NCBI GenBank assembly: GCA_964023275.1
Contig: OZ029929.1
Span: 3,723,844-3,787,843 of the forward strand
DNA length: 64,000 bases
From: Norana najaformis
Taxonomy: Eukaryota > Annelida > Clitellata > Crassiclitellata > Hormogastridae
Reading direction: 5' to 3'
The position numbers and the translations under genes are program-made. The notes beneath the pieces are model-generated. The model had not been told where the DNA came from and ran no database searches. It worked only from the letters and a program-made list of their open reading frames with translations. This document shows, piece by piece, positions 5,225 to 62,513 of this stretch; the first letter of the stretch is position 1, and each line of letters starts with the position of its first letter.

Positions 5225-6430
5225 ACACACTGTAACACATTTGTACAGCTATCAGTTTGGCTTTTTTGCTGATCTGTAATTAATCGCCAACATGCGGTGG
5301 ATAATGGAGAGACAAAAGGAGTATGGACAAAAATTATACATATGCTTCATTGACTATAGTAAGGCATTCGATTGCATTGATCATGAGTTGATGTGGAAAA
5401 CCTTAATAGAAATGGGAATACCAAGGCACTTGATACAACTTCTCAAGGGATTGTACGAAGAACAGATTGTGGTAATAAGAACTGAATTTGGAGATACTGA
5501 AAGAATCAAAATAAAGAAAGGAGTGAGGCAGGGATGCATTCTGTCCCCATTCCTATTTAACCTATATGCAGAAAGGATAATGAGGATGGCGGAAATGGAT
5601 GGAGCAAAAGAGGGAGTAAAGATAGCGGGAAGAACACTGAATAATCTGAGATACGCAGATGACACAACACTATTAGCAGGTAAAAAAACAGATCTGGTAG
5701 AACTGATAAGAAGGCTGAAGAGAGAGAGCGAGAAAGCAGGACTATACTTCAATATAAAGAAAACGAAGATCATGACAACAGCTGAGGAGGGCAGTTTTAT
5801 GGTGGATGGAGAGGAATTAGAGACGGTAACAAGCTTTACATTCTTGGGATCAGTAGTAGAAAGAGAAGGAAAGTGCGATATGGAAATAAACCGAAGGGTG
5901 GCGATTGGAAAAGCCGCAATGAATGGACTAGAAAGAATATGGAAAGACAAACATGTGAGCACAGACACGAAAAAAAGATTGGTGAGTGCCTTGATTATAC
6001 CAACAGTAACATACGGCAGTGAGACGTGGACAATGACCAAGAAAATAGAGAAAAAAATCAATGCTTGTGAAATGTGGATATGGAGGAAGATGCTGAGAAC
6101 ATCACGGACGGAGAAAAGGACTAATGAATGGATACGCAGGGCGATTGGAATTGAGCAAGATGAGACGTTACAACAAACAGTGCTAAAATCAAAGCTGAGG
6201 TTCTTTGGACATGTTATGAGATCAGATGGATTGGAAAAAGAAATGATGCTGGCTTGTGGAGAGGGAAAGAGAAAACAAGGGAGACCAAGGAAAAAATGGA
6301 TGGACAAGATACACGAAGCAACTGGAATGAACTTGGCACAACTAAGGGACGCGACATTGGAAAGAAAGAAATGGAGAAGATTGATCATGACGGTCGCTAG
6401 AGCTCAAAGAGCTGACAGCACAAGGTGACA
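5225..6430 (+). mobile_element. RTE/BovB-like LINE, 5'-truncated, long open frame
   Basis: An open frame of 378 codons (5292-6428) carries the second half of an RTE-clade reverse transcriptase. It includes CFIDYSKAFDCIDH (the first catalytic Asp block), KKGVRQGCILSPFLFN, the active-site block LRYADDTTLLAG, and then the C-terminal RTE blocks YGSETWTM and GRPRKKWMD. The frame ends in RADSTR, as in BovB-type elements. The endonuclease and the first RT blocks are missing. A few codons upstream of the first Met (from about 5225) still look like the family but contain a stop. This is a different RTE lineage from the element at 7850-11215. It is a truncated, non-autonomous copy, but the coding part is well kept, which suggests a fairly recent insertion. 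Confidence 0.9.
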
Positions 6431-7849: not shown

Positions 7850-10800
7850 CTGTTCTTCTTCTGTCTTCTCTTCCGCCATTCATGGCGATGAGGCCTTTAT
7901 GAAACTTCTCCAAACTTCTCTATTCCTGATTGTTTCTCTAACTCCAATCAAGCTTGTGCCTCTTTCTCTCAGATCTTCCTTGATATTATCTATCCAGGTC
8001 TTTCGTTGTCTTCCTCTGCTTCTCTTTCCTTCTATGTGTCCGTGTAATGCAGCATTTGGTAGTCTTCGCTGCGTCATTCTGAATACGTGCCCAAACCATC
8101 TGAGTCTTCTCTTTGCGATTTTTTCTACTATTGTTTCATCAGCTCCTAGTTCTTCTTGTGTTTTTTCATTTCTGATCTTTTCTCTTCTGCTTCTGCCTAT
8201 TATTCTTCTTAGCCAGCCCATCTCTGCCACCAATAGTCTCCGTTCGTCTTCTTTTCTCAAGCACCAGCACTCTGATCCGTATAGTAATATCGGTTCTACT
8301 AAGGTATGATAGAGCTTCGTCTTTGTTCTGATGGATATGTTTTTTGTCTTCCACATTTTTCCCAGTTTTCCGAATGCTGCGCACGCCAGTCCAATTCTTC
8401 GTTTGATGTCTTCTTCACATTTTCCGTCTTCTGTTATTAGTCCTCCAAGATAGACGAATCTGGTAACTTGCTCTAATATTCCTTTTTCTATTCTTATCTG
8501 TAGATCCTCGTGGTGCTTTCCAATTACCATTGTTTTTGTTTTTTCCACATTGATTTTAAGGCCCATTCTCTTGCTGTTGTTATCTACCCTGTCTGTTATA
8601 TCCTGTAGTTTCTCTTGTGTGTCAGCTATTAGGTCTATGTCATCTGCGAAGCGGAGGTTGCTTAGTGGTCGTCCATTTAGGTTTATCCCGTGGTCTTCTT
8701 CTTTCTTGGCAAGTCTCATCACTATTTCCAGTAACATATTGAACAGATCCGATGACATTCCACATCCTTGTCTTACCCCTACTTTTATCGTGAACCATTC
8801 CGTTAGTTCTCCCTCTACTCTTACTGCGCTTTTCGATTTGCCGTATATATCCTCTATCAACATCACCAACTCCTCTGGTACTCCACAGTGTCTCAGTACT
8901 TTCCATAGACCTTCTTGCCACACGCTGTCAAACGCCTGCTTGTAGTCAATAAAGTTGTTATACAGTGTTCTGTTCATTTCGACGTACTTTTCTGACAGTT
9001 GTCTGATTACAAATATCTGGTCCATTGTTCCTCGTTCTTTCCTGAATCCTGCTTGTTCCTCGCTCATCGCTGCTTCTGCATACCTCTTTAATCTTCTTTG
9101 TAATACTCCAGTGTAGACCTTTCCCGGTATGCTCAAAAGGCTGATTGCTCTGTAGTTGCTGCATTCTGTCTGGTCTCCTTTTTTGTATATTGGTACTATT
9201 ATAGCTTTGCACCAGTCCTTGGGGCATTCCTTGTCGTGATAAATTTTATTGCACAGTTTATGTAGCATCTCTACCGAACAACTCCCTCCTGCCTGGATCA
9301 TTTCTGCTGTGATGTTGTCCTCGCCTGGTGCTTTTTTCTTTTTTAGCCTATTAACTGTTGTTTCTACCTCCGCCTTCAGTATGTCCAGCATTTGTTCTTG
9401 GCTGTTGTTTTCTGGTAGCTCTTCAAGCACTGTTCTGTCCACTGGGTTCTCACTGTTATATAACTCTTCATAATGTTGTTTCCATCTCTGCTTGATCTCT
9501 GCTTTGTCTTCCAGCAGCCTTCCTTCCTTGTTTTTTACTGTGGCCAGTTTTACGTTGGGTGATCCGCATATTTCCCTTGCTACTTGAAATAGCTTTCCCG
9601 TGTTTAGTGCTCCTGGTGTGCTCTCCAGTTCTTGACATTTTTCGATGATCCATTCTTCTTTACATCTTTTCGCCTTTTTTCTGATTTCTTTCGTAATTTC
9701 TTTATACCTTTCCATGTTTGTCTCGCTGTGTGTTTTTGTCTTTCTCATGTCTCTTCTTTTGTCGCTCAATTCTAGTACTGCTCTGGTGATCCATGGTTTT
9801 TTCTTTTTCCTTTTTTCATGTCCCAGTACTTGCTGTGCCGTCTCAGTATATATGCTCTTTATTTCTGTCCACGTCTCTTCCACTGTGTTCATGCCTCTTC
9901 CCTTGCTCTGTCTCCATCTGTTCTCCAGTTGTGATCTGAATTGGTTTCTGGTTACATCATCCTTCAGTTTCTCCATGTCGTATCTTCTGTTTGTTCCTCC
10001 TCTGTCCATTTTTCTTAGTTTTATTCTGATTTCTGCTAGTACTAGTCTATGATCGGATGCAATGTCTGGTCCTGCAAATGTGCGACATTTTGTCACTGCA
10101 CTTTTCCATCTGTTGTTTACCATGATGAAATCTATCATGTTTTTTGTCTTGTGATCTGGTGACTCCCAGGTCCATTTTCTGCTATCCTTCTTCTGAAAGA
10201 ACACTGTGTTCATTATTCGCAGGTCGTTGTTTAGGCAAAAGTTTAACAATCTCTCTCCTCTCTCGTTTTCTTCTCCATATCCGTGCTTTCCTAGCGCTCC
10301 TCTCCATGTTTTCCAATCTCTCCCCACCTTGGCATTGAAGTCTCCCATTACGATAATTACGTCTTGACTCGATATTCCCTGCATCGTTTGTTGTAGCGTC
10401 TCATAAAATTCGTTTATTTCTTGGTCTGTCGCACTGCTTGTTGGTGCATACGCTTGCACTATTGTGGTCTTGCCGCATTTTGTACGAAATCTTGCCTTCA
10501 TTATTCTTGGTCCGATCGTTCTGTACCCAATGAGGGCTTTTGATGCCTCTTCTCTCAGGACCAGCGCCACTCCCTGTTGGTGTCCTCCATCTTTCCTTCC
10601 TGAGTATATTATCTTGTATCCTTCTTTGTTGATTTCACCCTCTCCCGGCCATCTCACCTCTGCCAGTCCCATCACGCTCCACCTGATTCTTTTCAGTTGG
10701 TGTAGAAGCACATCTAGCTGTCCTGCTGCATACAGAGTCCTGACGTTCCAGGTTCCAATGCATACTTCCTCTTTTCCATTGAACAGGTGCTCCTCGCGCC

Positions 10801-11215
10801 TAGTACAGGGTTTTCTCAGGTTTACGACCTGGGTGGCCCTGTGTTCTCCACCCCTGCCGGACGCGGATCCTCCCTTCATTTGAACGGAGGCTCCGTTAAC
10901 GTCGTTGCCCACTTTTCTGTTTGGTTTCATTTTCATAAGGTTTCTTGGTCTCTTTGCCGAGTGATGACCAGTTCTCTCTCGGTAGGGTAAGGAAGCCGGT
11001 GGGCCTTTTTTGGCCTCTTTCGCCCAAAGATGTCCTTCCAACACCTGCCGCCTGCGTTAGCCAGCACTCTTCGGGGTTCCTGGTGAGCCTGTCCACCTCG
11101 CGTAACGCCCTAGGAGGTTCTTCGGCCAATGGCCTTCTCCTCTGATGGCATAGCCTCACCAGGCTATCCCCTACTTGGCTGTTCACCCCCCACCGCGGTG
11201 AGGTGCAGGTCGGTC
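7850..11215 (-). mobile_element. Apparently complete RTE-type LINE
   Basis: This is a whole non-LTR retrotransposon in minus orientation. It has a G-rich 5' leader of about 170 bases (11045-11215), one long ORF, a short 3' UTR and a short tandem tail at 7791-7843. No stop or shift interrupts the ORF, and frames for the N-terminal extension, endonuclease and RT are continuous. It is therefore the youngest-looking element in the window. Its family is also represented by the decayed fragment at 40-760. Target-site duplications could not be identified with confidence, because both flanks are low-complexity (CAAGTTACATTT repeats on one side, TTAAATATGTATTTTA repeats on the other). Confidence 0.85.
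7880..11044 (-). CDS. LINE polyprotein: AP endonuclease-reverse transcriptase, 1054 aa
   Basis: The ORF encodes the protein that nicks target DNA and copies the element's RNA into it. Residues ~95-342 form an exonuclease-endonuclease-phosphatase domain: GTWNVRTL with Asn100, Glu129 in LAEVRW, the QAYAPTS block at ~197, GDFNAKVG with Asp235/Asn237, and SDHRLV at ~330. Residues ~550-900 form the reverse transcriptase: KAPGEDNITAEM at ~571, FIDYKQAFDSV with Asp700, KVGVRQGC at ~754, and the active-site LRFADDIDLIAD with the Asp pair at ~801-802. The C-terminal region has LYGSECWC (~921) and ends with a W-R-S-F motif near the stop. The position usually reading L-S-P after GVRQGC is M-S-S here. 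The chosen start is the first Met of the frame. The first ~90 residues are basic and of unknown role, so a later Met is possible. Confidence 0.9.
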   Translation of the reverse strand: MLEGHLWAKEAKKGPPASLPYRERTGHHSAKRPRNLMKMKPNRKVGNDVNGASVQMKGGSASGRGGEHRATQVVNLRKPCTRREEHLFNGKEEVCIGTWNVRTLYAAGQLDVLLHQLKRIRWSVMGLAEVRWPGEGEINKEGYKIIYSGRKDGGHQQGVALVLREEASKALIGYRTIGPRIMKARFRTKCGKTTIVQAYAPTSSATDQEINEFYETLQQTMQGISSQDVIIVMGDFNAKVGRDWKTWRGALGKHGYGEENERGERLLNFCLNNDLRIMNTVFFQKKDSRKWTWESPDHKTKNMIDFIMVNNRWKSAVTKCRTFAGPDIASDHRLVLAEIRIKLRKMDRGGTNRRYDMEKLKDDVTRNQFRSQLENRWRQSKGRGMNTVEETWTEIKSIYTETAQQVLGHEKRKKKKPWITRAVLELSDKRRDMRKTKTHSETNMERYKEITKEIRKKAKRCKEEWIIEKCQELESTPGALNTGKLFQVAREICGSPNVKLATVKNKEGRLLEDKAEIKQRWKQHYEELYNSENPVDRTVLEELPENNSQEQMLDILKAEVETTVNRLKKKKAPGEDNITAEMIQAGGSCSVEMLHKLCNKIYHDKECPKDWCKAIIVPIYKKGDQTECSNYRAISLLSIPGKVYTGVLQRRLKRYAEAAMSEEQAGFRKERGTMDQIFVIRQLSEKYVEMNRTLYNNFIDYKQAFDSVWQEGLWKVLRHCGVPEELVMLIEDIYGKSKSAVRVEGELTEWFTIKVGVRQGCGMSSDLFNMLLEIVMRLAKKEEDHGINLNGRPLSNLRFADDIDLIADTQEKLQDITDRVDNNSKRMGLKINVEKTKTMVIGKHHEDLQIRIEKGILEQVTRFVYLGGLITEDGKCEEDIKRRIGLACAAFGKLGKMWKTKNISIRTKTKLYHTLVEPILLYGSECWCLRKEDERRLLVAEMGWLRRIIGRSRREKIRNEKTQEELGADETIVEKIAKRRLRWFGHVFRMTQRRLPNAALHGHIEGKRSRGRQRKTWIDNIKEDLRERGTSLIGVRETIRNREVWRSFIKASSP

Positions 11216-15359: not shown

Positions 15360-17110
15360 TTATACGGAACACTTATATAGCACCCCTTCAAGAAAACTAC
15401 TCAGAAGCGCTCCCAGACCAACCTCGGCGAAAGAGAACAGTCTTAAGAGAAGAATAGAAGACAGAAGTAAAGACCCGGGGTAGAAGACGGAGAGTAACAG
15501 GAAGTCCATTCCAGAGGGTTGGGCCAGCAACGGAGAAAGCACGACGCTGCATGGTCGAGGTGCGAGCGCGAGGCACTAACAGATTACCACTAGCAGCGGA
15601 GCGAAGAGAAGCACGTCCCAAATTGGACCGGACAGGTAGGCAAAGCTCCCTCAAGTAAGAGGGGGCAATGCCCAACAAGGAGTTCCAAACAAAGACGATA
15701 ACCCTATACTGGATGCGCTGACTCATAGGAAGCCAGTGCAACTCATCCCGCATAAAATCAGAGACGTGACCAAGCCTAGAGATACCACCAATAAACCGTG
15801 CAGCCGCCCGCAAAACACGCTCCAGGCACAAAAGCCGTACATCAGGGAGTCCTACATATAGAGAAGAGCAGCTAGTCAAATGCATGAACCAGAGTCTTAG
15901 ATGAGGTGACTGAGAGAGAACGTGAGACAACACGAAGTTGCCGTAGCTGGTAGTAGCAACTACGTCAAAGGCGATGTACCTGAGCCTTAAAAGAGAGCTC
16001 CTGATCCGCCCCTTCTTCCTCTTATCTGCCTCTGCTCTCCAGCCCCAAACATCACCCACCGTAGCTGCCACGCTGTCTCTCTGCCTGACTCTTGGATCTT
16101 AACCCGGAACCGAACCCTTTTGCCTATCGATTTTGTTTTGACTAAGCGCCTGTGAATAAGCTGGTCCCCGCGGCGCGGCTTTCGTTGGGCGCTGTAGAAA
16201 TCTTGGGATTACGATTACGATCCAACTCAATGCCAAGGTCATAAACAGTGACTGAGAAGGTGATGTGAGGAAACTCTAAATGAAGTACAGGTAGATTGAT
16301 TTTAGCCAATTGCTGCTAGTGCCCAACCAAATATATTGAGTCTTGGAAGGATTCAATCTCAATCGATTTGAAGACATCCAAGCCACAAGGGAGTCAGAAG
16401 CACAACACATAGCCCGAACAGCAGCTGCGGCATCAGAAGCAGAACAATGAACATAGGCCTGCACATCGTCGGCATAGGACTGGCTTGAAGCCGAGCACGC
16501 GGCTAGCAAAGAGCTAAGGTCAGCAGTAAACAGTACATAAAGCAAGTGACCCAAAACTGACCCCTGAGGCAATCCAAACAAGGAAGAAACCCAAGGTGAA
16601 CGGGATGGGCCATAAACCACACAGATAGAAAAGAGGCCAACCAATCGAGAAAGTTGCCAAATAAACCAAAAGAAATAGCCAGACGTTCCAAAAGTATAGC
16701 ATGATCGACCGAATCAAATGCAACATCGAATAATGCAAGTAAAGTAACTTGAGAACGATATATGGCACCATATATATCAGACAGAAGTCGAGTTAATAGT
16801 GTCTCAGTAGAGTGAAATCTACGAAAGCCAGATAGAGAAACAGGTAGTAGATTATTAGTTTCGAGATAGGTAACTAACTGACTGGATACAATTTTCTCAA
16901 TGATCTTGGACAAAAAAGTAACATTAGATATTGGTCGAAAGTTAGACATGTCCGAGACGTCGAGGCCATCACGCTTGAGAACCGGAATGACGATGGACTT
17001 CTTCTGAGACGGAGGTAGAAGACCCTCTCCCAATGAGCGATTGCAGAAGAGGGTCAGGAAGGGAAGAAGAACGTCGATATAATGCTGAATGAGGAACGGC
17101 GGCAGAGTCT
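15360..17110 (-). mobile_element. CR1/L2-type LINE, interrupted by a nested insertion
   Basis: This minus-strand element has lost its endonuclease. The RT part lies at 17033-16276: KKSIVIPVLKR, NFRPISNVTFLSKIIEKI, the LLALFDVAFDSVDHA block and the active-site block QSYADDVQAYVHC. The C-terminal part lies at 16050-15397: LRAAARFIGGISRLGH, ELHWLPMSQRI and FSVAGPTLWNGLP. The 3' end at 15410-15360 has the SxxGCGCT...TATATAG signature also seen at 50150 and 63230. Frames shift several times. A short plus-strand element (about 16080-16222) is inserted between the RT and C-terminal parts. Sequence resemblance places it with the copy at 49417-50200. Confidence 0.85.
16080..16222 (+). mobile_element. 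Nested 3' fragment of another LINE family (family B)
   Basis: The last ~75 bases (GTGAATAAGCTGGTCCCC to the GATTACGATTACGATC tail) are nearly identical to 47222-47300. The tail of GATTAC repeats is typical of CR1/L2 3' ends. It lies in opposite orientation inside the minus-strand LINE, directly between coding blocks that are continuous in other copies. Confidence 0.7.
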
Positions 17111-47999: not shown

Positions 48000-48206
48000 T
48001 ACAGTGCCAGCGTGTCTAGTTCTTCATGACTATGTCTATGGGCCAATGCCTACAAGTGCCAGCGTGTCTAGTTCTTCAGGACTATGTCTATGGGCCAATG
48101 CCTACAAGTGCCAGCGTGTCTAGTTCTTCAGGACTATGTCTATGGGCCAATGCCTACAAGTGCCAGCGTGTCTAGTTCTTCAGGACTATGTCTATGGGCC
48201 AATGCC
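48000..48206. repeat. 52-bp tandem repeat, four copies
   Basis: Units at 48000-48050 (51 bases, one base shorter), 48051-48102, 48103-48154 and 48155-48206. Each contains GTGCCAGCGTGTCTAGTTCT and CTATGTCTATGGGCCAATGC. The last three are identical by eye and the first differs at two places, so the array is recent. No coding frame is implied. Confidence 0.97.
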
Positions 48207-48779
48207 TGTGGGCATATGAGTTATCTGGAAGAGGCGTAACATAGTTGCATTATACGGTTACGACGAATCTGTGAAGGCCACTGTTTATGGATCTGAGGCG
48301 TGTGAGCCTAGGAATAGACAAAGAGCACGAGACGAAATTCAAGACAAGCGACATAGAGTTAACCTCGTTCTCTTGGACGTCGTCCTCTTCCTCCTCCTGT
48401 TCCTCCTCCTCCTCGTGAAGCTCCTGTGTTGCTATCAGAATAGGCTGGAAGTGAAAGACGACAGTTGATTGACGAACCATCGATCCGAAGAAAGCGCAGA
48501 CGTGAATTGCTTTCACTGCCAACAATGACCGACCGATCGACCGATCGACTGAGCAAAGACTGCCGACGATTGTTATAGAAATGAATAAACAACGATTAGC
48601 ATAATCAATACAGCCGACTGCTGTAGTAGCAGCCAACGATCATCATGCGCAGCAACAGCTACAGCTGCAAATGCACGTCCTGAGTAGGCCATGTGGGGGT
48701 CCTATGAACCTGGGCCCGGTCGAAAGGAATGGAGGAAAGAAAATCTGTAAGCCTGAAAAAAACAAAATAAAAGAAGTAG
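48207..48779. other. Nothing coding recognised
   Basis: Small low-complexity features: a CTC-rich run at 48388-48420 and GATCGACC repeats at 48531-48548. Confidence 0.4.
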
Positions 48780-51439: not shown

Positions 51440-54412
51440 GTTCTGTTGCGCGACGCTGATTTCGGTGATTGGCTGACGAAACTGATTCTTATGTCTGTAA
51501 ATGCACTCAATAACCGGTATAAATGGGCGCAAACAAACACGCTTCTAGAGCTAATGAGAGAATCAGAAGGACCCACTGCACTCGAACTGGCAGCGCTTTA
51601 CGTCCAATCGAAAATGGTTGAGATATTGCTCGATACAAACCAAGGCGTATATTCAGAGGAACATCTTACAGACAGGTTTCATTGCATTATATCCTAAATT
51701 GAGTGATGCTCTTTATGATACTATCAAATGCAAAAATGCTGCAAAAATCGCAGAAGTTCTTGCAAATTCGGACAGATTCAATGTAAACTATCCGGGCAGG
51801 CTATTAAATACTCCACGGTGTTCAAAATATGCTCTAAATGGTTTCGCGATCACCTTTTTAGAAAGTCAAGAAAGCCACATTTCCAGATTCAAACCATTGA
51901 CGATATAACAAAATTGCTGTAACTGTAATTTGAAATTTGTATAGCGCCTGTTCAAGATAAACTCCTCAGAGGCGCTCTCTGCGCTAACGATGTTAAATGT
52001 CATTAAGAACGGAACATTCGTCCACGAGTAAACATTGGTCAGAAAACTAGAAGAGTCACCAGTGGCACTTAATAACTGGTATAAATGCTGCTGGAGAAAG
52101 GCGCAGATTTCAACATAAAAAAATTCTCATGGCAAAACGGTTTGATCATTGCTTCCCAAAATGGCTGTCATCACGCCGTTCAAATCTTGCTCGACTGGGA
52201 GCAGAAATCGAGAATGAAACACGATATGGACGCAAGAGATCATTATGGAGCAACTGCTTTGATTAAAGCGGCTGGAGGGCATCATGTCGAATTAGTGCAG
52301 CTGCTGCTGAACAATAAAGCGTCCGTGAATCCATTTAGGAACTGGTTAGATCTGCATTTCTTCTGCAAGGGGCTTCAAACGGAGAAATATCGAATCAACA
52401 ATTTTCTTCAGATTAACGATTGGAGGGATGCCTATGAATCGCAATCCATTGGACACAAAAAATTACTCGATGTAAAGAACAAGTGGTTAAATTGTTGTTA
52501 AGCGTTGCCCAAACAAATGTGAATGCCATGAACTTCACAGGACACATACCACTTGATTTGGCAGTGAAGTCTTTCAACCGAAAGAATTTGGGAACTTTCA
52601 AGGAACCGCGGCGCTATTCGAAAACTACGAGATCAAGTACCCTTGAGTCAACTCGTCATCTCTCCTGTTCGCAAAGCAGAACAGGAGCATGAGATTCGAC
52701 TTTTAAAAAGAGAATTTCAGGCATTTAGCTACTGTAATAGATGACAAGGGAAGAACTTCTCTTCACTACATTGCTAAGGAATATCGCGAGGTAGCAAGGG
52801 TGCTACTAGAATTGGGCTGTAGCGTAAATGCAACTGACATTTACGGCAAAACCCCTTTACATTACGAAGAAAACAATGAACATTGTAATTTGCTTCTTAA
52901 TTGTGGAGCTGAAGAAAATATAAAAGACATACACGGATATACTTCTGGAGAACTTAAGGAACTACGAGACCGGGTGACAAGCAACGAAAAGTACGAAGTG
53001 GAATTGCCAATCAGAATGAGCACGCTTGGCACATTCAGGAAGCTAAACGCTAATCATTTGACAGAATTAACGAAGCAAAAACTGGCTGACACGATTAAAA
53101 TTTACTCCCAATCATCTTCAGGTCAAGATTCGTCGGAAGAATTCGTTTGGAGGATGTAGGTCCACAACGAATTTCTTCGCCTTTACAGACGCGTAAGCCA
53201 ACTTCAAACACCACTACAACATTTCATGGACCGTTTGGCTCAGCATAAAGGAAAAGGAGTGGCGATTTGTGTGTCAGCCGATTTTATTCGGAAGCGCCGA
53301 CGAAGAAACAAAAGCTGACGTTTCAGCAGACTTCGACTATGACTTGAAACTGACTCAATTTAGCCAACTTTGCGAAATATTTCCTCGTCCGTTGAGTCTT
53401 GAAGGCTACTTTCAACTGAAACGAAAGTCAAAAGACGATGCCAAGAGTAGGAATGACGAGGTCTTTGACTGGTTCTTCCACTCAGATCAGTGTCTGCTGA
53501 CTCATGAAGTCAATTCTAGATTCCAGATTATTCTCGAAGAAGTCTTAAACGACCCTAATTTCTGGAAACATGACGATCTGTTCAAGTGGATTGTAACAGG
53601 TGAAGACGAAAAGAAATATGAAAGGCCAGCTTCATCCCACTGACGATGGTGACTCTCTCTTTGTCAGCATATCAATTGACGTCGTTGCTTGTGTTCATGT
53701 GTCTGGTTTGTAGCCAAGAGACCTGCTGCCAGTAGGTATCGGTCCTGCGGTGAAAACAGACGTTTGTACACTGGTCTTTGATCGGCCACGCTTTGATCGT
53801 TCCAACCCAAATATCGCTCAATTCCTCTCTTCCGAAACATTTGCTAGAATTCATTTGCATCGGTTTGAAGTCGAATCATCAAAGAAAGTTCGCCTTTAAT
53901 AAAGGCAGCGTACATACTTTGCAAAAAGATACTTTCCGATCAATTCAAAACTTCTTATCAACTGAAGACTTCTCTATTGCATGGAGGCTCTCAATGGCAG
54001 AAATGGAAGTGAAACACGAAACGAAGACAAATTTACGCGAACGGAACTCGCCTTCTGGATCGAGAGGATCCTGTTTTGCTTCACGGAGTTTTCTCGACAT
54101 GACGTTTATCTCTGTTACCTAATGCCATCATTCAGACAGGAATTGCATCAACTGTTAGGTGACTGTTGTTCTTTGCAGTCCATCGAAGAGGATGAGGTTA
54201 AAACTCCTTCAGACATTAAGTTGCCCTTCTACTACTCTGCAGTATATGACATTTATCTGGCCCTTTGTCGAGATGACGTCTCAACAGATATACCTATAAT
54301 CCAAGGGAATGACGACTACGCCTGGTTGTATGCGAATTATGACCCAATATGGAAACACTTTTATATGGAAGAATTTATTAGAAAGCTATCTTCACGTAGT
54401 TTCAGGCAATGA
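51440..54412 (+). pseudogene. Ankyrin repeat - Mab-21/cGAS-like nucleotidyltransferase, broken gene
   Basis: Ankyrin-type repeats are read at 51500-52960 (for example EGPTALELAALYVQSKMVEI, YGATALIKAAGGHHVELVQ, NAMNFTGHIPLDLAV, KGRTSLHYIAKEYREVARVL, IYGKTPLHY). A Mab-21/cGAS-like domain follows. It has FGSADEETK then SADFDYDLKL (53290-53352; the G-S and D-x-D catalytic blocks), FSQLCEI, SISIDVVACVHV (about 53660-53700; the third catalytic Asp), and AWRLSMAEMEV near 53985. Such enzymes make nucleotide second messengers in animal innate immunity (cGAS, cGLRs); many relatives have no known activity. At least seven changes of frame and some stops, with no splice sites at the joins, argue for a pseudogene. 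A LINE 3' end is inserted at about 51914-52075. The absence of introns over ~3 kb suggests either a retrocopy or an intronless parent. Function in life is inference. Confidence 0.78.
51914..52075 (-). mobile_element. CR1/L2 LINE 3' end inserted in the pseudogene
   Basis: Plus-strand TGTAATTTGAAATTTGTATA, GCGCCTGTTC and AACTCCTCAGAGGCGCTC are the reverse complement of the 3' end at 63115-63260. Ankyrin-like coding ends just before it and resumes just after it. Confidence 0.7.
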
Positions 54413-57400
54413 ATGTTATCCTGTGGTGACATGTGATGTCAGTAGCAAAGTGACGAATTTGGATATGTGTTTCTCTGTTTCATCTTTTGGAGCGTTGTTG
54501 GTTCTTACCTTGGCTTTTTTGAAGTTTCTGGCAACTTCTCGATGAAATTTTATAGGCAGTCGATCTAATCAGAGCTCATCAAATTGTGATTTTAATTCTT
54601 TTCATACATCTATATAGTGCAGCTTTAAAAGAAACAATTTACAGGCGCTGTTTATAGCCCACTCGTATTAGAATCATCACTGCCATGATGTCGGACAAAT
54701 TTCCGAAAATTGGGGAGAGCGTTGGTGTAAAGCAAGACGCGAGTTTTTATTGTAGCATCCCTTATGGATGTAGGATTAGCAGGAAACTGTTCGAATTCGA
54801 TGCTTCTATGCACGCAAACCTTTTAGTATTCGGGTAAACGAGAAGAATATTATTGCCATGCAAATTGGCTAAACGACTTATGTAGTAAGAAATATAATAT
54901 GGCTTCATAACAATAAATATTCCGAGCCAAATTTCTTAACAATTCGTGTAATTCGGAACCGTATGCTGTCTAAAATGGAGGCTGACACTTAAACAGATGT
55001 AGCCTAACACAAAGCATCTGATGCGTAGAAAATGAAAGCAGAGACCAAGTGAGCATCAAAGGCCTTATAAGGGCGCATTTTCGCAGCTAGGCGCCGACTT
55101 CTAGGCTATGCATGCCCGAGACAAGTCTTAGCGTACTGCTTAACCTTTATTTTTGGATAACATCGATGCACAGCATCTGCTGGATCCGAGTCGACTGCGG
55201 GAAAAAAACAGCGCAAGAAATGACGTCATCATCAGTAGCGTTTCCGTTTCTACGACTCTGTCTGCCGCTTTTATCTTGGGCTCGTATTCATGCAGTGTGT
55301 AGCCCAAAGTTCAGCGGATCCGCCTCTATCGTCCGGGTTCATGTAATCGGTTAATAACGTATTTTTACAGGAATAAAAATTAGTATCTGCTACTAGCAGG
55401 CAGCGTTTCTTAGCTAACAGATTTCTCCATTTCTTTTCTGATAGGATCCCCGTAATCTGGTGCACTTATTCAAACACTGATTAAAACATTGCTGGTCTCC
55501 ACCTGTTTTAAGCTCACTCAAACAGCAACTGTATTTGTAATTCATATTCTCGTTCTCTTGCCTTCTAACAATCAGTGTGCTTTTGACTTAATTCCAACCG
55601 CTCTCTGAAGTTCTCGACTCGTTTATTTTTCACATGTTAACTTCTCCCTTAATGAAGACCGCTTTCCTTCTCGCAACCCTTTGATCTACCAATCGTAAGT
55701 TAAGAAGAAATGCATTTCTTTAGTTACAATTTAATTTCTACCCTGAAGTTTGTCTCTAAGGCCCTTTAATATGCTGTTGTTCAGCGGCTCAACTGTCATC
55801 TGGCATCAATTACCGTCAATCAAAACATACTTCTCCTTGAACATTGGTTTTGGCTTTCGGGCCTCTCTCTGAGCTGGACTGCGACTGACCTTTCCCCTTG
55901 CACTCAGACAATTCACATTACTGCAGTAATGCACTCGGCACCGCCTGTGGAAGGAAATTGTTGTCTATGCACGTAGACTACTCACAGTAATGGATCCATG
56001 ATGTTTTTACTTCGGATGTGCACTCAAAATCTAGCAATACCTTAATGTGCTAAAAAAACACCGATTTATTTTGTATCCTTTAACAAAAGCAGATAAATTC
56101 AACAACAAAAAACGTAATTTTTAGGCTTTTTCATATAAATAACTGATCAAATTTGTTTAACGAATGAATTTATTACTCGTTAATTGGAAGTAAAAGGTCT
56201 ACGTTTTCTCGTCTTATAAAAAAGTAACTGTTTGCACATAGGAGCAGGTTTCACCTTGGCAGCAACGCCATGTCGATATATCAATATTTTAAAGCCAGCT
56301 GTCCGTGATTAAACTCGGCTTAGTCCCTTTTACTTGTCGTAAGCCTTAACTCAGTCAGCATCAGCCGTTCACATACGGTCTTAATATTGTTTTAACTCCT
56401 GGCCTACTTATGTAGACGAAAGCCTATATGTATTTATAATTACTGACGTGCAGTCGAAATTAGGTAAAAACGGAACTTCTTACTGGCATATAAAACTGTT
56501 CCATCTAATTTTTATCGTGCGCGCACTGACCTAGCGCGTGGGCGGTAACATATTGGACCTGCGCTCTGGTCCGTGCAGTTTAACATCTATTAGGCCTAAA
56601 CTAAAAGGCTGTAAAAAAACTAAGCACAGGTTAAACTTAAGTTTGCCTATTATTTGTTTAAATTATACGATTGCTAACAAGGTTTCACAAGATCCACCCT
56701 GATTTCTTGCTGTTACCCTATAACAAGCTGCACAGCTGATTTCTTGGACAACCTGAAAATGTATCTTTTATCTACATTCCTACGTTTTTAACTGAATCGA
56801 CAAACATTTTGTCCCTTCGTTTACCAATGGTGACATCGCCTTGAGCGTTGGCTTTCTCGCACGTATTGCAAACAACGTCGTCAAAATTGTGACGCTACGT
56901 AAAAACTTCCTTTAACGTAATGGTTTGCTTTGTATTCAACGACGACACTCATTCATTGTCCATATAGTCTATTCATTTAGCCACTCTGTCTTAACTCGTT
57001 CGCAAATTCTAGTTCTAGCCAAAAAGCCGCCATCGGATTATTTCCATTTGCCATTTTATTTAATCGCAAGCGCTCGAATGTTGAGAGTGAAAACTTGTAG
57101 ACCTATCCCGTCAAGTACACGTACTCTATAAGGTTTATATAGGCCTACGAACTATATTTTATGCTGTTGTTTTTAGGAGCAATAAATAAAATGAAGTGAA
57201 ATTAAATTTATTTTGACCTGCATACTGAAACTAAAGTCGCTAAAAGTCTTTCTATATTACACTTGTAATAATTTCAACACTGTGGAACTTAGTCGACGGC
57301 GGACCATTCAGTATATTTATACACCCGTGCAAAACGCTAAGTTATGAGAAGGAACGTTTCTTCTTAAGCTAGAGAATAGCATATACATGTGACTACGTTT

Positions 57401-59269: not shown

Positions 59270-60487
59270 TCAGAGCAACTGATCTTCATTTCGGACATCG
59301 AGAGTTGAACGGCTCTCGATGGCTTCCAGTGATAGGGTGATGTTCTCGTTTTCTTCAAGGTTTCTGTAGCAGATTATTCTTTGGCAACACTTACCACGCA
59401 TCAAAGACCTCAGTTCCTGTCGCATATGGGTAATGATAGTAAAACATAACACTGGTACGACAATAAGGTGAGCACGCGCAATAAATTCCAATAGGAAAGA
59501 TAGCTTCCGTGAAATGATAAAGATAATGATTTCATGATATTGAAAATCTTGGAGTAGTTTATAACAGACCGTCGGAAACTGGGAGATGAAGACGGAGGCA
59601 GCGATAAACACCGACGCTCTTGTGAAGTCTTCATGGTTGGACGAGGAAGAGAAGACTTCGACTCTTGTGAAATCGTCATCGCCGGCCGGTATAGAGGCGA
59701 TTGCAGCGATTTGCTTCCGTCGTGCGCAGAGAATCATCATCGAAAGAACCGGTATAACGACGGCAATGGGAAAGTAGAAAAGTAGGCACTTGAAGACAAA
59801 CTCCCATTGACTGAATGTGCCAACCCACTCATCCGTTTCACTACAAAACCTGAAAGTACGATCGTAGTACGTCGACGTATTGTACGCGAAATACAGAAGA
59901 CGCCATAGATTCATCACAACAAAGACGCCAGAAAACACACCGACAACAACCTTTGATCCGCGAACTGTGCAGTAATTTGAGGCAAGAGTGTTGAATCTGG
60001 CTCCCTGCGCCAGTTGAAACCTCAAGTAAACATCAAGGAGCAGACCGACCAGGAACATGCCCGTGGAAATCTCTAAATGTAGCAGAAAATTCCAAAATTT
60101 GCAAAATATGTCAGAGGTGTGCTGGATGTGGTAGTAATGTCCAAAAATCGAAATCCACTCAGGAATGTCGACGGCTGTTACTATAAGGAGCTTTCCAGCA
60201 AGGATTGCCAACAGGTGAATGTATCCTTCGTGTTGAATCCAGAGTCGACGTCTTATCAGAAGAGTAATGGCCAATATGTTGACGAATCCACCGATAATAA
60301 TGCAAATCATGCGGACAGACTCCTCCATGATTTGCTTGTTGCTTACGCTTTCCCTCGGTGCTTCCAGAAAGTCCCAAAGAGAGAGGTGTTTGTGTTTATT
60401 CATTTCGTCAACATTTGTTATGTCAACTGCCGTTTTATCATTCACATTGCTCATGATTAAGGATGAATAAGTCAGTAAACTTCTCAC
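59270..60487 (-). CDS. Orphan rhodopsin-like (class A) GPCR, 405 aa, single exon
   Basis: This is an uninterrupted receptor gene. Seven hydrophobic segments are seen at residues ~58-79 (TM1, with GGFVNILAI carrying the conserved Asn70), ~89-110 (TM2), ~127-151 (TM3), ~179-203 (TM4), ~229-254 (TM5), ~291-312 (TM6) and ~333-352 (TM7). Cys129 at the top of TM3 and Cys215 in the second outer loop fit the usual disulphide. The DRY motif is replaced by DVYLRF (Asp152), and the NPxxY motif of TM7 is not recognisable (VPVLCFTIITH), so it is a divergent receptor. Loop 3 is Ser-rich, and the tail has a Cys pair (KCCQR) that could be palmitoylated. N-glycosylation is possible at Asn203 (NTS), near the outer end of TM4. 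The ligand is unknown; peptide-type receptors are one possibility. Met1, Met12 or Met29 could be the start. It would act in the plasma membrane through G proteins. Confidence 0.85.
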   Translation of the reverse strand: MRSLLTYSSLIMSNVNDKTAVDITNVDEMNKHKHLSLWDFLEAPRESVSNKQIMEESVRMICIIIGGFVNILAITLLIRRRLWIQHEGYIHLLAILAGKLLIVTAVDIPEWISIFGHYYHIQHTSDIFCKFWNFLLHLEISTGMFLVGLLLDVYLRFQLAQGARFNTLASNYCTVRGSKVVVGVFSGVFVVMNLWRLLYFAYNTSTYYDRTFRFCSETDEWVGTFSQWEFVFKCLLFYFPIAVVIPVLSMMILCARRKQIAAIASIPAGDDDFTRVEVFSSSSNHEDFTRASVFIAASVFISQFPTVCYKLLQDFQYHEIIIFIISRKLSFLLEFIARAHLIVVPVLCFTIITHMRQELRSLMRGKCCQRIICYRNLEENENITLSLEAIESRSTLDVRNEDQLL

Positions 60488-62513
60488 TTGCAGAAAGCAG
60501 TTTAGCTACTTGCTTAACCAGCTTCTAGAAGACTAGACAGACACAGGCTCTACTGTGAATTATTTCCGCATCAGAACTTTAATCACACTTTTGTATCTGC
60601 GTCGGTGCACCTGCTCACCTTAGTAAACGCCGACGCAAAATAAAAACATCTTAAGCATTAAACTTTTGCGGTGACTTGTGAAACTGATATCCACTCAACT
60701 ACCGCAGTGCGCCATTCATGTTTCTATAACAAAGAATATCAACTTGTCGAATATTTTGTAAAGATATTTGTGGGCCAAATGCAGACTTTTCCAAGAGGAA
60801 ACTGAAGGGAAAATGTGGCAATAGACTTCAATAGTTATCCGTGAATTTAATGTCCCAGGTCGATAACCTTTGTCCAGGCATATCTTAGTGTCATAGAAGG
60901 CCTTCCTGGTTATTGAAGCGCATGATTGGAGGCCTATGTGTGCTTGTATATATGCGTGCATGGATATATGCATAATATTAGTGAGATCTCCAATCAAGCC
61001 ACATTTGGTATGGATAGTACTGTAATATCAGATTCCCCCACGAACCCGTAAATGGAACGATAGAATGACGCCATTTTGGTCCATGCTCTAAAAAGCCGTC
61101 TGCTTAAAACCATTGATATTTCAGATAACATCGTGGCGTGTAAAATATAATACTGTAACCTCGCGCAATGTTAATTCACGCCTCATGACTGTGGTATATA
61201 TTTGGGTATAACGACGCGTAGTTACATAAATGCGTTTGCATCTTTTAGGAAAGTTATCGGTGCATATTTAAACAAATGTTACATAGTCTAATTATAGTAA
61301 AAACTTACGTTGTGGTAATAAATCAGCAAATATTATTGTTAAAACTTCACAGTTTACGAAAGAGTCTTAGCGGGAATGCAATATAAATGGTACATGCAAA
61401 ATAGCAAATATGTAGCGCCAACAGTTTCCATTCTTAAACTGTGAAGTTTAAAAAAATGCGCTGTAATTTTGAAATCTGGAGTAATGTGCCAGGAGATGCT
61501 ACATTTGACCGTGGTTACTCTAATTCCATATATTTCGATGGCAACTGAAGCCCGTAACATTGGATGCCCTAACTGTTAAATATTGAAGAACTACTTCCGC
61601 GAAAAGCATCTTACCCATTGCCACGCCTCATTGCTCTATTCGTTGTACAGGCGCCTAATAAACGAGCTATTATCTAACCTTAATCCAAGATGACTAAGAT
61701 AGTAAACATCAAAGTTAGCTTACTAGAACATGAATAGAGAGACGAACGAACATTCGACGGCCGACTATACCAGTCCGCAACATGTAAGAAGGATAAAGTT
61801 GACTTAGCACTGGGCCTCCAACGATAGATTAATTTATGCATTGCCTTTGAGCCAGAACGTTGACAGTGTTACCATTTGGGAATCTCTTAAAGGCAATTTA
61901 TATTAATATAAGACACAGACTTTGTTAGATTGTTTATAGACATAGATGTCTTGCAATAACCGCCAATAGCCAATAACCGGACAGTAATCTGGACCTGTGA
62001 TATAGGTGACCAAGTACATGTTTAACTGACATCCCATTATCAGACATTTAGGGCTTATACTCAATAGTGTCTACTATTAGCTGACATTATTTTAAAAAGT
62101 GAAGTTCATGAGCGGTGCCAAGTTTCTATTTTTAAATTATCCTTGGTGCGCTTGCACTGACAGTCTTTTTCTCGAACTCTGTGCTTCTGTTGTTCAATAG
62201 TTAATGCGTCAACTTTTTCCAGCTTCTTCCGGATTTCCTTTCCCACAGTATGAATTGATATTTGTATAAATTATTGTTTCCTTGATTCGTCCAGTCCACT
62301 ACTCTGGATTTTCAAGCGTAGATCCAAGTCCCTCACACAACATCGATCACAGACTCAAAGTCCTCCAATATCTTCTGTTGTAATGTTTACATTTTGAATG
62401 ACCAGAACCAGCTTTACAATGGTGGCAGACCGACCGGTTAGCGCTGGGGTCAAGCACTTTCGCAGCCATCTGGCGATTAAACAGTCCCAGAGATCAGCTA
62501 ATATGAGTACATA
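60488..62513. other. Upstream of the GPCR; nothing else recognised
   Basis: The first few hundred bases should hold the receptor's 5' UTR and promoter, but no clear TATA box or initiator was picked out. The rest shows no coding or repeat signal. Confidence 0.4.

Follow-up and report, generated by a model that had tools for sequence, protein, structure and literature searches.

Nucleotidyltransferases of the cGAS-like receptor (cGLR) type are defined in PMC9980059 by the motif h[QT]GS, X8-20 [DE]h[DE]h, X50-90 h[DE]h, although a Methods passage of the same paper requires just G[S/G]. As far as the available text of this source goes, 87% of cGLRs carry no added domain, some contain ankyrin (ANK) or TPR modules, and numbers per genome can be large: more than 200 cGLRs were reported in some bivalves, while the coral S. 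pistillata has 42 cGLRs together with 7 STINGs, three of these cGLRs being fused to domains that include ANK and death domains (PMC9980059). ANK-fused cGAS-like receptors and their large expansions are already known from that work. The fusion of ANK with Mab-21 is not described in the available passages of PMC6321704 or PMC9334734. An initial annotation of the locus presented below regarded ankyrin fusion to a Mab-21/cGAS-like nucleotidyltransferase (NTase) as an unusual architecture; the fusion proved real but it is not new, as ANK-fused cGLRs had been published (PMC9980059).

The locus lies in a window of 64,000 nucleotides (the whole stretch of DNA that was analysed, C17:3723844-3787843) from a genome of 608,420,607 bases in 17 contigs. 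Six-frame reading of the plus strand between 51.4 and 54.4 kb reveals a chain of open pieces, with the frame changing from piece to piece. Eight pieces were submitted to Pfam. Ank_2 was recognized in 52085-52498 (E 1.1e-10) and Ank in 52707-53156 (E 1.4e-9), both above the cut-off, and two further pieces gave sub-threshold ANK matches. The piece 53197-53640 reached 17.2 bits against Mab-21 (E 0.0054), under the cut-off of 24.1, and the assignment of an NTase from the window alone is tentative. Of the catalytic blocks, GS is found at 53290-53295, DFD at 53329-53337 and the third Asp at 53678-53680, the last in a frame that differs from that of GS and DFD. The previously noted succession of ankyrin repeats and G-S, D-x-D and third-Asp blocks is thus entirely present in the window DNA. 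The interval 51440-54412, given at first, covers most of the decayed copy; DNA search of the genome itself and blastn against the copies of the array described below place the true span of homology at 51524-54656 on the plus strand, with about 51921-52080 being an inserted repeat (Table 1).

Table 1. Parts of the decayed ANK-NTase copy, in window coordinates
Feature	Position	Strand	Basis
Whole decayed copy: 5'-truncated ANK-NTase gene and ~245 bp of former 3' flank	51524..54656	+	own-genome DNA search, blastn
ANK region, first surviving coding stretch	51524..51920	+	blastn/tblastn to L010, L015, L022
Insertion: interspersed repeat of ~150 bp, imperfect ~12-bp flanking duplication	51921..52080	.	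genome copies, array alignments
Rest of ankyrin repeats and linker, several frames	52081..53156	+	Pfam ANK; tblastn to open copies
Mab-21/cGAS-type NTase, first half, with G-S and D-F-D (tentative from the window alone)	53197..53640	+	25 genomic copies 67-78% identical; Mab-21 17.2 bits alone
NTase second half (with third Asp) and C-terminal part, stop codon at end	53641..54412	+	tblastn to open copies; hhalign of the open-copy profile with Mab-21 proteins
Former 3' flank, homologous to array-copy flanks	54413..54656	+	blastn vs array copies

Several other features were seen in the window, where Rfam and tRNA scans found nothing. On the minus strand, 7883-11056 holds an open frame of 1058 aa from a non-LTR retrotransposon with endonuclease and reverse transcriptase, which is perhaps young because this frame is open. 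Pieces of reverse transcriptase are located at 5280-6425 (+) and 16506-17108 (-). A single 411-aa frame at 59273-60505 (-) looks by eye like a seven-helix receptor and has no Pfam match at E <= 0.01, and a tandem repeat at 48003-48207 with 52-bp spacing consists of copies that are 99-100% identical in register.

A genome search with the NTase piece (55 candidates scored) gave 45 matches, of which one is the window copy itself and 44 lie elsewhere; open frames of at least 900 aa, as listed, hold 33 of the 44. Twenty-five form an array on the minus strand of C17 (9.67-10.27 Mb; 67-78% identity, E 3e-54 to 7e-66), about 6 Mb from the window on the same chromosome. Further copies, at 38-45% identity, were found on C11 (ten, at 16.75-17.05 Mb), elsewhere on C17 (eight) and on C5 (one). 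In 19 of the 25 array copies an open frame of at least 880 aa is present inside the fetched 3.4 kb, and six (L013, L014, L016, L021, L027, and L033) are broken. Together with four copies fetched from C11, the 19 make up the 23 open frames analysed; ANK was detected in every one at E <= 1e-5, and alignment locates the NTase domain in all 23. For three array genes the full frame was determined (1510, 1759, and 1592 aa); each is a single long frame with many ANK repeats at the N-terminus and the NTase last. Several ANK repeats above the Pfam cut-off occur in two window pieces, in the 23 open frames and in the three full N-termini. Since both parts stand in a single open frame in 19/25 array copies and 4/4 C11 copies, ANK and NTase are one gene. 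Among the remoter copies, three of three exceed the ANK cut-off (L044 and L045 on C17, L046 on C5); Mab-21 scores slightly under its cut-off in L044 (21.9 bits) and L045 (22.7 bits), both scanned as cut stretches, and is not listed for L046, whose frame stops within the NTase. The prediction that related genes exist elsewhere in this genome was borne out by the 44 other matches, most of them with long open frames, and the proposed search for intact paralogues with Mab-21 and ankyrin yielded 23 frames carrying both. A single genome therefore offers a clustered family whose copies range from nearly identical to well diverged.

The identity of the NTase was established mainly from the open copies. 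PF03281 is matched at E <= 1 by every one of the 23 NTase domains and at E <= 3e-5 by 16, the other seven not reaching the latter value; when whole frames were scanned, 22/23 matched at E <= 1 and 11/23 at E <= 1e-5. The curated cut-off of 24.1 bits was passed by L010 (33.2-34.9) and L035 (50.2), and Mab-21_C (PF20266) was matched in none of the 23 NTase domains at E <= 1. A single NTase piece searched against solved structures returned only four ETV6 fusion constructs (E 0.017-0.057), taken as chance matches, so that a family profile was needed. The best solved structures for this profile were cyclic GMP-AMP synthase 7lz3 (E 0.002) and cGLR1 8gjy (E 0.0024), a weak match in both cases, which is what the suggested comparison of the catalytic region with cGAS/cGLR structures gave; MB21D2, at E 0.82, ranked after chance-level matches to U1A. 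When the family was aligned by hhalign with six Mab-21 proteins encoded in this genome, a probability of 96.3 (E 2e-9) was obtained over the third-Asp strand and the C-terminal part. The initial annotation would have been undermined by a region 53270-54000 devoid of Mab-21 similarity; the similarity is there, weak in the window copy by itself and upheld through its open relatives.

The catalytic residues are well conserved in the 23 frames: GS, the first acid and the third Asp are found in all, and the second acid in 21, with N in its place in L023 and L024. The residue preceding GS is V, I or M in 23/23, which departs from the h[QT]GS of the cGLR motif. The distance from GS to [DE]h[DE]h corresponds to X = 11 in 23/23 (both acids in 21/23) and falls within the cGLR X8-20, whereas the distance from DxD to the third Asp is 121-144 in 23/23, outside the X50-90 that precedes h[DE]h. 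Because of these two departures, the family is classified by its sequences as ANK-fused Mab-21 (PF03281) proteins, outside the strict cGLR definition of PMC9980059; by analogy, its proteins probably work like cGLRs. It is also worth stressing that the published motif, used literally in a search, would miss these genes owing to their atypical spacing.

The window copy was described at the outset as broken in many places, and the comparison with L018, its nearest copy, agrees: over 2576 aligned bases (82% identity) there are nine frameshifting indels and five in-phase stops. Frameshifts and stops amount to 13 and 4 against L028, 11 and 5 against L010, and 9 and 4 against L022, and the lesions include multi-base deletions as well as the insertion of the ~150-bp repeat. 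Being broken, the window copy cannot make an ANK-NTase protein. Nothing in the window corresponds to the first 460-760 aa of the three fully read array genes: in the DNA upstream of 51524, tblastn found just two chance-level hits (E 0.30 and 0.80), neither of them to ANK repeats. Beyond 54656, no array copy matches the window by blastn, while among 16 array copies tested, 14 continue to resemble each other for another 358-452 bp (262 bp for L015, 119 bp for L031); the window copy is thus truncated at both ends.

The same count of frameshifts and stops, made for ten array copies, gave none of either in L017 and L025; L022 and L031 had no frameshifts and one stop each, taken to be their own gene ends, past which the slice extends. 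Only stops were found in L014 (one) and L027 (two), two frameshifts and two stops in L013, and two frameshifts and no stops in L016. In L021 (9 frameshifts, 14 stops) and L033 (12 and 13), decay equals that of the window copy. Decayed copies are therefore present in the array too, and the window pseudogene is an ordinary one. A test of decay by codon position was rejected: at columns where the other copies do not vary, private changes at positions 1, 2, and 3 numbered 14/309, 18/379, and 16/244 in the window copy and, much alike, 16/334, 21/417, and 17/269 in the open copy L031, so that the test does not discriminate. In the tree, the window copy is placed beside L018-L020 with a support of just 0.187.

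The repeat inserted in the window copy has at least 12 other genomic copies on 10 contigs, at 93-97% identity, and both flanks of the insertion align to the same 12-13 bp in many array copies. Most of the copies found are ~97% identical to the inserted repeat, as against a branch of ~0.13 for the window copy, and by this comparison of sequences the repeat probably postdates the divergence between the window copy and its relatives. It was also observed that window positions 51918-51980 resemble the 3' flanks of L014, L022, L023, L025, and L032 on the same strand (48-60 bp, 75-81%), a hint of related repeats in the window insertion and the array 3' flanks.

How strongly the open copies are constrained was assessed from dN/dS. 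When the 19 open array copies are compared in every pairing, the median is 0.90 for ANK (170 pairs) and 0.73 for NTase (171 pairs); over eight disjoint pairs, the values are 0.81 (95% 0.69-0.95) and 0.65 (0.56-0.76), respectively. In 200 simulations, unconstrained change of 0.13 substitutions per site introduced on average 14 stops into 904 codons and never fewer than 6, and at 0.05 per site 6.1 on average, with zero stops in 1 of 200 simulations. As the frames stay open against these simulated stops while dN/dS is high, the pattern is that of functional genes, in which open frames are kept and residues are under weak or diversifying constraint. We make no claim of positive selection, because the means over the eight disjoint pairs are below 1; stretches with dN/dS up to 1.54 were seen over all pairs, but these pairs are non-independent. 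Capture by a virus or bacterium gained no support in the sequences scanned: the family alignment gave 26 pattern stretches in viral contigs and 18 in prokaryote genomes, none of which was confirmed.

The ANK-NTase family is accompanied by other Mab-21 genes and by STING-like exons. With 150 of 247 candidates scored, the genome contains no fewer than 150 PF03281 matches. Three other Mab-21 genes that were scanned (L005-L007) contain Mab-21 and Mab-21_C and no ANK in the frames given. Big clusters of Mab-21 genes are situated on C1 (0.9-2.6 Mb), C2 (36.3-37.7, 47.1-47.6, and 50.6-51.0 Mb) and C8 (8.3-13.0 Mb), the clustered genes being often single frames of ~700 or 950 aa that match chiefly the second half of PF03281. 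Twelve exon matches to STING_LBD were located at C3:48.636-48.746 Mb and C17:6.050 Mb (together L042 and L043), ten of them in one stretch of C3. These STING-like genes may serve just the other, larger Mab-21 families of this genome.

The homology, truncation and lesions of the window copy, the open frames with ANK and NTase, the conserved residues, the clustering and the STING-like exons are all observed. The window thus contains a dead, truncated duplicate of an ANK-NTase gene, and we hold it likely that the proteins of the open copies work like cGAS-like receptors and feed STING. Nucleotide synthesis and STING signalling by the open copies are proposed by analogy, and, more tentatively, the ANK part may be a sensor or a scaffold. 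Enzymatic activity and an immune role, treated as inference in the initial annotation, keep that standing here. In the proposed mechanism, the long and variable N-terminal ankyrin solenoid would bind a trigger or position the protein on it, and this contact would free the C-terminal NTase. The NTase would then make a cyclic dinucleotide, or a similar nucleotide, by means of its GS loop and metal-binding acids, and the product would activate STING. Tandem duplication and fast amino-acid change may have spread the recognition surface across many copies, with dead copies such as that of the window as by-products of array turnover. A bolder version, which we regard as improbable, makes the array an NLR-like set of cGAS-like receptors that sense proteins. 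Recognition of pathogen or damaged-self proteins would fall to the ankyrin solenoid and not to the NTase, the many duplicated, fast-changing copies would feed one nucleotide-STING pathway, and the lengthened stretch between DxD and the third Asp would be the means of control of the active site by ANK.

The reading of the window copy as a broken DNA-level duplicate has to be weighed against three others. One is that the animal has a whole gene here, its apparent breaks being errors of assembly or sequencing. An error-prone assembly could produce frameshifts, and direct support for this was not found; multi-base deletions, a ~150-bp repeat insertion with flanking duplication and the missing N-terminal part argue against it, as do L017 and L025, which are free of lesions in the same comparison, and such an error is very improbable. 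Chance joining of two separate genes in the window would account for ANK and NTase standing in different frames there, and was named at the beginning as an outcome to be checked; the relatives refute it, as both parts stand in their open frames, and we give it practically no credence. A processed retrocopy of an array gene agrees with the 5' truncation and with the end of 3' homology ~245 bp past the stop codon, and intron loss is no criterion, since each of the three fully read array genes consists of a single long coding frame. However, no run of A follows 54656, and of 16 array copies scanned for AATAAA or ATTAAA between 400 bp upstream and 60 bp downstream of the position corresponding to 54656, only L025 (66 bp upstream) and L022 (205 bp upstream) have either one; retroposition therefore seems rather unlikely.

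The remaining alternative concerns the open copies and not the window. It assumes that the ANK-NTase family does not signal through nucleotides and that the fold is kept for a structural or developmental role as in Mab21L1/2, the acids being retained for another reason. The residue before GS and the spacing of 121-144 outside the published cGLR motif fit this assumption, as does the lack of the second acid in L023 and L024, and for Mab21L proteins a developmental role and an unknown enzymatic activity are stated in the available text of PMC9980059. The acid triad is nevertheless kept in 21 of 23 frames, and for a large, clustered, fast-changing family a developmental gene would be a poorer match than a repertoire of receptors. 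We consider a non-signalling family unlikely, if still worth keeping in mind, and retain the receptor interpretation.

Placed among known systems, the clustered family behind the pseudogene is moderately interesting, and an ANK-fused cGAS-like array could conveniently serve as a natural panel with which to investigate what is sensed by the ankyrin part of receptors like these. With the ankyrin-containing cGLRs, as presented in the available text of PMC9980059, it shares a Mab-21/cGAS-type NTase with GS and acid triad, the ANK fusion, and a big expansion in one genome along with several STING-like genes. It differs from them in having V/I/M in place of Q/T before GS, in a spacing of 121-144 instead of 50-90, and in the array genes, whose open frames measure 959-1759 aa when not broken. 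Set against the Pfam models, the family matches PF03281 throughout at the permissive threshold and its C-terminal part aligns with Mab-21 proteins, but the PF03281 matches are modest (34.9 bits for L010) and PF20266 is matched by no member of the 23. The solved structure closest by profile is that of cGAS (7lz3); the alignment with it takes in the E/D-F-D and S-[IV]-D stretches, and the profile score is weak. The N-terminus of cGAS is a disordered basic tail, whereas the proteins of this family have an N-terminal part built of ankyrin repeats.
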